From Thermaerobacter subterraneus DSM 13965 (lineage in GTDB: Bacteria > Bacillota > Sulfobacillia > Thermaerobacterales > Thermaerobacteraceae): a stretch of 64,000 bases of DNA. The notes under the pieces were generated by a model. The model searched no databases and was not told the origin of the DNA. It worked only from the letters and a program-made list of their open reading frames with translations. The stretch covers positions 859,890 to 923,889 of the forward strand of contig NZ_JH976535.1 of NCBI RefSeq assembly GCF_000183545.2. Direction: 5' to 3'. Positions 17,498 through 22,093 of the stretch are shown here, piece after piece (the stretch's first letter is position 1; each line of letters starts with the position of its first letter). A program made the position numbers and the translations under genes.

Positions 17498-20400
17498 TCA
17501 TGACGGGGTGAGGGTGGACCAGCCGGCCCGGCCGGCCTCCGGGCGTGTCCCAGTCTGTGGGGTGGGCTCCGCCGCCTGCTGGCCCGGTTCTTCGTCGCCC
17601 GGTACCTCGTCCGGCCCAGCGCCGGCGTCGAGGCCCTCCAACCGACGCTCGCCGTCCCACACGCTGAGGACCGGCACGACGATCCCCTCCCCCGGCACCA
17701 TGGTGTAGGTGGCGCAGGCGGGCAGGGCGGCGCCCTCGCCGCGGAGCTTCTCGCTGGTCATGATCCAGGCGAAATCGAGTTCCACCATCAGCCGGAACAT
17801 CGCCTGGATGTTGCCCTCGTCGACGCCGGCGAAGGCCTCGTCCAGCCCCACCAGCCTCGGCGCGTCGGGCCGGGCCGCCTGATACCGCGCATGGACCGCC
17901 GCCAGCAGGGGGACGAACACCGCCAGGGACTTCTCGGCGCCGCTGCGGGAGGCGAACCGCTGGTCGGTCAGCTCCCGTACGGGCTCGCCCGGGCGCCGGG
18001 TCCGCAGGGTGAAGTCGAACCACTCCCGGTAGTCCAGCACCCGCTCCAGGGCGGCGCGGAAACCTTCCGCCAGCACGTTACCGCGCTCCTGTTCGCGGAT
18101 GCGGTTGACGTTGTCCCGGAAGTGGCCGATCAGCTCCTCGACCTCCTCCCGGGTCAGCGTGTCGGCGTCCCGGCGGATCAGTTCCACGAGCCGCTGAAGA
18201 TTCCCGGACGTGGACCCGCTGCGGTCGCGGAGGCGCGGCCGCCAGTCCAGGGAGAGGACCTCGCCCCCATGCAGGGGCCGCTCCGCCAGGAGCCGGTTGA
18301 CCTCGGCCAGCCATCGCTCGGCGCGGGCGATCTTCCGGCGAATCTCCGCGGCCAGGCGGCGGAGGATGACGTCCTCGTAGAGCTTCCGCTCTTCCTGTTC
18401 CAGCAACTGTTGTTCGAAGCGGCGCCGCTGCTCCAGCTCGGCCACCAGCTCATGGGGCCGTAGCATGCGGCCCTGCTCGCGGAAGGTGACCAGGCCGGTA
18501 GAACCGTCCAGCTCGGGCAGGTAGCCTGCGAGGGCGCCCCGTTCCTGCTGGAAGACGTGGCTCAGCTGGTTGAAGGCCTTTTGCCGATCCTCCTCCACGT
18601 ACCGCTCGCGCCTCTCTTCTTGCGAGCGGCGGAAACGCAAGAGATAGGCGGCGGCCCGGGCCGGTCCTTCGGTGTCTCCCGGCGCGTCGCCGTCGAACAG
18701 GGCCAGGGCCTCGGCCAGGGAAGGGTGCGCCAGCAGGCGCTGGCGCAGCTCCGCCTGCCAGTGGGCCTCTCGCTCCCGGGCCTCGGCGAGGGCGGCTTCC
18801 GCCTCGCGAAAGCGTTCCTCCTGGTGACGGAGGCGCTCGCCCAGCGCAGCAAGCAGCGTCGCCATCCGCCGGTCGGCCCGCTGCAGGAGGTGGCGCCGGC
18901 GGGTAACCCGGCGGATACGGGCACGCAGCTCGTCGATCCCCATGGCCTGCAGGCGCTGCTCGAGCAGCCGGCAGTGGGCCTCGCGGCGCGCCACCTCGGC
19001 CTCGTCGTCCCGCAGGCGGCGCTCCAGCCGCGCCTGCTCGGCCCGGGCGCGGCGGTGTTCCTCCCACCACTGGCGGATCTCCCGGGCCCGGCGGTGCAGG
19101 TTGCGGAGCCGCTCAGCGACCAGCTGCAGATCGCGGGTCACGTGCTCGGTGGCCCGCAGCATGGCATGGAGCCCGTCTTCGTCCCGGCCCCGGGCCTCGG
19201 GGATGGGCTCGAGCCGCCGCAGGTAGTCCGCGTGGGCTTCCTCCCAGCGCGCCCGTGCCCAGGCCTCCTGGGACTGCGCCTCCTGCACGCGCCTATCGGC
19301 CGCGGCGCGCGCCTCCCCGGCCGCGCGGCGGCGCTGGGCGGCGTGCACCAGCTGGGACCAGAGATCCAGCCGTTCCAGGGCGCGCCGGTCTTCATCCAGG
19401 TCCGCCCGCTCGGCCGCTCGCGCCGCGATCTCGCCGTCGAGGCGGGCCATCTCCCGCTGCGTGGCGGCCAGCTCCCCTTCCAGCTCGTCCAGGCGGCGGC
19501 GACGATAGGCGCGCCGGTTGCCCTCGCCGATGTATCGGGGCCGGGCGGCCTCCGGCCGTTCCGACGAACCGGCCAGGATGCCGAGGCGCCAGGCGCCGGA
19601 GGCATCCACGGCGGCCATGGCCTCCGTTGCGCCGGTGGCTCCGGTGGCGGCCGCCGCGCCGGCGGCCGCCGCCGGGCCGGCCGCGGCTCCCCTCCCTGCG
19701 TCCGAAGCCGACCCGGCACCCGCATCCCGAGCATCCGGAGCTCCAACGGCCGCCCCTCCCGTCACGGTTCCGGGACCGGGAACAGACGGCCCCGACGGCA
19801 GTCCCCACACCACGGACCGGAGGGCTGCGATGACGTCGGCGGCGGTGAGCCCCTCGGTGCCTGGCGGCAGGGCCGGGCGGAGCCATTCGGCCAGGGTATA
19901 CCCCAGCACCTGGGGCCGGGGCTCGATCCAGCGATCCGCCAGTCGGGGATCGGCGAGCAGGGCCTTCACCTCGCCGACCCGGCGGGCAGGGACGACGAGG
20001 GCGTCCAGCAACCCGGTGTCCTCCAGGGCGCGCTCGATGGCGAGCTGCTCGGCCTCCGAGAGTCCTTCTGCGAAGTCGCAGACGCTGTACAGGGGGTGGG
20101 CGGGAATGCCGGCCTCCCGCAGCCGCGCCCGCGCCCGCTCGGTGGCCGCGGCACGCGGAGGCGGCACGTCCCTTTCCTCCCGCAGGCGTCGGATCTCGGC
20201 CTCCAGCTCGCGGGCCCGGCGCTGGGGTTCCAGCCGTTCGCCCCGCAAGCGGGCGATCTCCTCGTCGAGGGCTTGGCGCTCCCGTTCGATCCAGTCCACC
20301 AAGGGATCCCGCAGCCGGTCGACGACGGGCTGGACGTCGGGGAACTCCCGGATGCCGCGGATGGCTGCCGCCAGGACGAAGTCGGGGACGGAGGCCCGCC

Positions 20401-22093
20401 GGGCCTGCTCCCGCCAGGCATGCAGGACCGCGGCCGCTTGGTCCTGAAGGGCCTCGAGGTGGCCCTCGGCGGCGCGGGCTTCGTCCACCGCCCGGCGGAA
20501 GGTCTCGCGGGCCTGTTCGAGCAGGGCGAACTGCGTCTCCCGCTCCCGTTCCGCCCGGGCCACTTCCTGGCGGGCACGCAAGACGGCCCGGAGGGCTTCC
20601 CGGCGGCGCTCGGCCTCGGCCCCGAGGTCCGGGACCGCCGGTCCCTCGCCAGCCACCGCCGCTTCCACGGCCGCTTCCCTTTGGGCCGCTTCGGCCTCGA
20701 GACCCGGGGCGGGTTCGTCCGCGGAGGGGGGACGGAGCTCCCCGACGGCCCGGGTGAGGTGAGCGACCACGTCGCGCGCCGCCGCCCAGCCGGCGGCGCG
20801 GGCATGCTCGGCGGCCTGGGCCAACAGCCGGCTCAGGGCCTGGACTTCTTCGTGCCAAGCCGCCTCGGTCGCTCGCGCCTGGGAGGCCCGCCGTCGCCCG
20901 TCGGTGGCGGCCCGCTCACGGGCGGCCCGGGTCTCGTCCCGTCACTGCCGCGCCCGGGCCAGCTCCTCCCGGGCACGGCCGAGGTCCTCTTCGGTCCGGA
21001 AGACCTCATGGGCTTGAAGGGTGCGCAACTCCTCCTCGACCACCGCCAGTCGCTGCCGCACCCGCTCGTGCAGGGCCGAACGGCTGCGATGACGGGCTCG
21101 TTCGGTGGTCAGGTGAGCTTCCAGAACGTCTCGCCGGGCCTCGACCTCCCGCCGGTGAGCCCGAGCGGCGTCGAACTTGACCGCCGCCTCCTGCGCCACG
21201 TAGTTCAGGTAGTTGCCCAGGGCCTGGTCGACCGCGCGGGCGGCCCGGGCCTGTTCGTCCGTCTCCGCCAGCCGGTCCAGGCAGTCGTCGATCCGCTCGA
21301 TGGTGGACGAGACCTGGTCGAGCAGGCCTTCCTCGAGGGGAGGGAGGGCGGTGCGCAGGGTCTCGCAGACGTCCGACGGGCGCACGTCCTTGTTCAGCTT
21401 GGGGCTGCGTAGCTGCAGCAGCAAGGACAGCAGGTCGTCGTAGTCGGCTTCGTCGGGGAAGCCGAAGACCAGCCGGTTGACGAGCCGCTTGTACTCCGCT
21501 ACGCTCCGCACCACGCGACCGCCCATACCGATGCGCTCCGCGAGGGCGCGCCAGGATAGCGGGACCCGCTGCTCGTCGTAGAGCGCAAGATCGACGCCCA
21601 GGCGCCGGCCGTCTTCGATGCTGAAGCCCCAGAAGTCGACCTCGCCGCCCGGCCGGTTGCGGTGGGTGTACAGGCCGACGCCCACCGTCAGGGTGCGGGC
21701 GGAGGCACCGTACTGAAACTCCAGGGCCACGTAACCGGTGCGGCTTTCGTGGTAGAAGGCCGATTCCGGGGTGGCGTCCGGATCCCCCACCAGGTAGTAA
21801 CGCACGCTGCGCCCGCGCCCGCCGAAGGTGTCCATGCGCTCGGGGCTCTTGTTGCCGTCGAGGACGAGGGTGATGGCCGCGGCCAGCACGGTGGACTTGC
21901 CCGAGGCGTTGCGACCGTGGAGGACCAGGCGGCCCTGGGCGAAGTGGAACACCTGCTCGTCGAAGAGCCACCAGTTGATCAGGATGAGGCGCCGCGGCCG
22001 CCAGCGCGCTGCGCCGCTGCGGCGATTGAGCTCCTCCAGGCGTTCCACCAGTAGCTCCTCGCCGGTGGCGAGGTCGCGCACGCCGAGGGTCAC
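17498..22093 (-). pseudogene. jetC: Wadjet JetC-like SMC ATPase (TIGR02680), interrupted by one in-frame TGA
   Basis: An SMC/MukB-like ATPase of about 1,531 codons. It starts at GTG 22093, which overlaps the jetB stop (GTGA) and follows AGGAGGT. Walker A (HGRNASGKST) is at about 59-68. After residue 383 there is a TGA (20942-20944), and the same frame then continues for 1,147 codons of charged coiled coil. Near the C-terminus come the signature SGAEKS (about 1384-1389) and Walker B LVGLDEAF (about 1413-1420). No base is inserted or lost; CGA to TGA fits the coiled-coil context. An Ala/Gly-rich insert near 690-740 is unusual. JetC normally extrudes plasmid DNA loops with JetA and JetB. Either the gene is dead, or N- and C-terminal halves assemble as two chains. 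Confidence 0.88.
20942..20944 (-). other. In-frame TGA within jetC
   Basis: The codon order on the minus strand is CAG-TGA-CGG. The upstream frame ends in a helical run (REELARARQ) and the downstream frame resumes directly with RDETRAARERAAT, both typical coiled coil. The low coordinates of codons on each side differ by a multiple of three, so this is a nonsense change and not a frameshift. No good ribosome site with a start codon follows closely; the first candidates are weak. Confidence 0.85.

Follow-up and report, generated by a model that had tools for sequence, protein, structure and literature searches.

Wadjet requires all four of its subunits, and its cleavage of DNA requires a functioning JetC ATPase (PMC10586767). 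A type II Wadjet structure from Neobacillus vireti figures in the literature as a work cited in PMC12647877, and the solved type II JetC 9qe0 (also 9qe1) is a single chain of 1,371 amino acids. The window, i.e., the whole stretch of 64,000 nucleotides from Thermaerobacter subterraneus DSM 13965 that was analysed, contains a locus that has in common with the system of 9qe0 and 9qe1 the gene order jetA-jetB-jetC-jetD, the four type II families and the conserved head and hinge regions, but differs from it in that jetC carries a TGA at codon 384. We conclude that the locus is probably an ordinary type II operon of Wadjet, a bacterial defence against plasmids, in which jetC has recently gained a nonsense codon that inactivates the system.

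Table 1. Features of the type II Wadjet operon, in order of transcription (window coordinates).
Feature	Position	Strand	Remarks
jetA	23633..25537	-	type II kleisin, TIGR02677; intact; stop codon TGA
jetB	22090..23622	-	type II KITE subunit, TIGR02678; intact
jetC, part before the stop	20945..22093	-	383 codons; GTG start with strong Shine-Dalgarno (SD) sequence
In-frame TGA, codon 384 of jetC	20942..20944	-	in the N-terminal coiled-coil arm
jetC, part behind the stop	17498..20941	-	1,147 codons
jetD	15310..17301	-	type II Toprim nuclease, TIGR02679; frame intact

The four genes lie side by side on the minus strand (25537-15310; Table 1), so that all four type II families are found adjacent on one strand, and the TGA of jetB overlaps the GTG start of jetC (GTGA). 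The matches to TIGR02677 and TIGR02678 are above their cut-offs, that to TIGR02680 is above its cut-off once both parts of jetC are summed, and that to TIGR02679 on jetD reaches 168.8 bits, below the cut-off of 196. The first ~95 codons of jetD form a low-complexity stretch and its true start is uncertain, being probably further inside than the annotated one. At the annotated start there is a G-rich tandem repeat (window 17243-17309) with units of 18-24 bases and ATGGGG-like words.

The earlier note had described jetC as open on both sides of the TGA without a change of frame, with the ATPase signature and Walker B in the second part, and both statements are borne out. Translation of the minus strand from 22093 to 17498 yields, in a single frame, 383 residues, the TGA and a further 1,147 residues up to the terminal TGA at 17500-17498. 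An open frame alone is little proof of coding at this composition, given that the G+C content of the window is 71% and the opposite strand has a 951-amino-acid open frame over the same stretch. The PADLOC JetC2 and NCBIfam TIGR02680 profiles, however, match both parts of jetC in order, and the match to PDLC00554 extends across the TGA (481.7 bits versus 472.3 bits on the N-terminal part alone), which identifies the frame behind the stop as homologous coding sequence. The part before the stop encodes that half of the ATPase head which carries Walker A, followed by the initial ~100 residues of the coiled coil; the part behind it encodes the rest of the arm, the hinge, the return arm and the C-terminal head with the signature SRSGAEKS and the Walker B motif LVGLDEAF. 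All elements of JetC are consequently encoded, and the TGA parts Walker A from the rest. An Ala/Gly-rich low-complexity insertion of ~60 residues (window about 19600-19780) lies beside the conserved hinge region.

Read in the standard code, the product consists of the half-head with Walker A and a coiled-coil stub of ~100 residues. Lacking the hinge, the signature and Walker B, this product should form no JetC ATPase; JetABC would then be unable to sense small circular DNA, and JetD would not be directed to cut. A non-working system is thus what the sequence leads us to expect from termination after codon 383, and a search of the genome found no second jetC or jetD as a stand-in. The remainder of jetC is intact and conserved, as are the other three genes. 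Annotation based on profiles would nevertheless count the system as complete, since each part of jetC scores well on its own.

The nonsense codon is a disabling lesion that is missing from intact homologues. A check of the same codon in relatives, proposed in the earlier note, gave no support for a shared site: the corresponding column is free of stops in all 39 relatives aligned. The column is variable and occupied mostly by polar coiled-coil residues (S, Q, D, K, E, A, R, G, T, N and H were all found), and Cys never occurs in it among the 39. The nearest relative in the class (L023) has 56% identity on the N-terminal part and 40% over nearly the whole protein. The frame is open from end to end in its JetC gene and in all others of the class that do not run into the end of a contig.

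Can the stop be passed? Reassignment of TGA is rejected: each of the four jet genes ends in this codon, as do most genes predicted in the window, and its use in the operon indicates that the genetic code is standard. Leaky read-through, in which near-cognate decoding of the UGA (followed by C) would give enough full-length JetC for some function, is in our judgement improbable. In E. coli, UGA terminates weakly when C is the next base, as is the case at codon 384; the column of this codon tolerates many residues, and the part behind the stop is conserved. Against this, UGA is the terminator of each gene in the operon, and the lack of a stop at this site in any relative shows that it is not a conserved recoding site. 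Many other stretches are as structured as the RNA behind the UGA: the folds of 56 and 76 nucleotides are ordinary and only the 45-nucleotide fold reaches z = -2.15.

Decoding of the UGA as selenocysteine by the SelA/SelB pathway is barely credible. Of the pathway, SelA was looked for, and each of the four genomes of the genus encodes it; a hairpin also stands at an acceptable distance behind the UGA. The loose rule that this hairpin satisfies is, however, also satisfied by 22% of all codons of the operon, the site is in coiled coil, and the conserved Cys and specific hairpin of a selenoprotein gene are both lacking in the 39 aligned rows and at this site, respectively. The SelA gene of this genome is located at G000:C2:107244-108605 (L065), and a gene for a 56-kDa selenium-binding protein lies beside the operon (window 26914-28332).

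Another way to preserve function would be a second translation start. The earlier note had raised the possibility of an SMC ATPase built from two chains, i.e., of parts translated separately that assemble into a working JetC. The two parts of jetC are collinear and conserved, and the halves of the Rad50 head can assemble as separate chains in artificial constructs, both of which would be in keeping with the idea. However, no usable restart was found near the stop. The nearest in-frame start behind the TGA, a TTG, comes 40 codons later, and its SD pairing is negligible (-2.5 kcal/mol), and the first strong SD sequence stands ahead of a GTG at 20167, 259 codons past the stop, where a start would lose most of the N-terminal arm; 2.8% of the internal in-frame starts in genes of the window score as well as this GTG. 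Near the split, then, there is no start codon with a ribosome-binding site for a second chain. A restart by way of a GTGA overlap was also rejected, as the GTG overlapping the TGA is in another frame. The split is found in none of the 39 aligned relatives, complete JetC genes of the class encode one chain, and about 7% of the sampled type II JetC genes have a single break elsewhere in the gene (see below). The conserved split that a two-chain class would have is not seen, nothing positive speaks for such an ATPase, and we regard it as highly improbable. Searches of the literature on natural split SMC genes and on nonsense-broken defence genes provided nothing useful. More broadly, it is very unlikely that the cell tolerates the UGA and keeps a working complex, whether through regular read-through or through a JetC in two chains. 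If it did, the locus would provide a natural example of an SMC ATPase whose assembly spans a stop codon, and passage of the stop in the cell would challenge the view that the SMC arm must be one chain.

We return to the nonsense mutation as the preferred explanation and to its age. Relative-rate tests with L023 as the sister and L025, L026 or L027 as the outgroup detected no significant excess of changes in the window protein either before or behind the stop (the lowest p was 0.10). Columns that are invariant in six relatives are retained at similar rates on the two sides (59 of 68 ahead of the stop, 27 of 29 in the middle part and 44 of 51 in the C-terminal head), and the third-position G+C content of jetC is 0.86-0.90 on both sides of the stop. 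Because the part behind the stop evolves no faster than the part before it, the stop is either recent or being passed; the sequence behind it appears to have been translated and selected until recently, or to be so still. This absence of decay, together with the intact state of the other three genes, is the evidence against an inactivated gene: neither relaxed selection nor a further lesion was detected behind the stop, and the nonsense reading is compatible with that only for a recent lesion. A very recent mutation would account for the lack of decay, but no better than would a sequencing error or passage of the stop.

An error of sequencing or assembly, which would mean that jetC is intact in the strain and its Wadjet system functional, is unlikely in our assessment, though not negligibly so. 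The single isolated lesion in an otherwise perfect operon and the lack of relaxed selection behind the stop are what an error would produce, and no second assembly of the species was found for checking; searches for a second copy or another assembly of the site, one of them with a pattern in which the third base of the codon was fixed as A, returned none. On the other side, the assembly is good (2 contigs, 99.96% complete), and wrong single bases seldom occur in assemblies of this kind, whereas a broken jetC is no rarity. A comparison of the genes of the window with two sister genomes gives no measure of assembly quality, spurious antisense frames being dominant at this G+C content. Among the four readings offered in the earlier note, inactivation by a single change is the best supported, sequencing error and read-through stay as lesser alternatives, and the two-chain ATPase is the least likely.

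The statement that broken jetC genes are not rare comes from a sample of 398 genomes of the phylum, which yielded 59 further strong type II JetC genes, nearly all of them with frames of 1,350-1,700 residues. Two of these (in G510 and G428) are short through contig ends and were left out, leaving 57 that can be judged. G428 was also considered as a case of a shared split and rejected: its reported TAG sits just upstream of the start codon, and the gene is cut by a contig end. Single breaks are present in 4 of the 57 genes (about 7%), each at a different site. The jetC gene of G462, a complete one-contig genome, has an in-frame TAA near codon 972 (L067 about 4422-4424, G462:C1) in a frame that is otherwise well conserved, and those of G509, G294 and G313 have one frameshift each. 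These four genes resemble jetC of the window in having one lesion in an otherwise well-matched gene, and differ in that the site and kind of the lesion vary from gene to gene. The N-terminal arm that has the TGA in the window is also the site of two of the three frameshifts, at other codons, but the cases are too few for inference. Judging from these gene sequences, jetC breaks are not rare and not conserved, and some of the four may themselves be sequencing errors.

The genus offers a second form of loss. jetC is absent from the three other genomes of the genus that were examined. In one of them, the sister species G003, the flanks of the operon are 94-98% identical to the window, and the segment corresponding to window 13819-15442 joins directly to that corresponding to 25387-25532. 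The deletion amounts to 9.9 kb (window 15443-25386) and has left a scar (L074, G003:C1:2072500-2082500) in which the end of jetD is fused to the start of jetA. What the joint retains of jetD are its conserved C-terminal codons, and of jetA the first 50 codons, which are not conserved; a few bases are common to both ends. Since the end of jetD and the start of jetA are retained, the ancestor of both species had the operon, and G003 has lost it by deletion. At the corresponding place in G002, no recognisable jet sequence was found. Spontaneous deletion of jetABCD has been reported in Clostridium cellulovorans (PMC12287153); there and in G003, as in the present genome, Wadjet function was lost, or would be, in a lineage that had it, the difference being that those losses are deletions of the operon and the present one is a single nonsense codon. 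The system of T. subterraneus would be at the first step of decay, where the sister species has already lost it.

The observation has little significance outside this lineage. One genome in which a single gene of a nearly intact Wadjet operon is broken, and a sister species in which the whole operon is deleted, together illustrate how such systems vanish, and the nonsense reading predicts that the strain accepts small plasmids. Two further observations concern the surroundings of the operon. Beside the scar in G003 is a second joint, where G003 lacks 583 bases (window 25533-26115), among them the end of a gene for a bacterial PH-domain protein (25886-26299). Elsewhere in the window, two related genes for thiamine-pyrophosphate enzymes (window 509-2740 and 9164-11035) flank a Mutator-family transposase gene (7375-8655).
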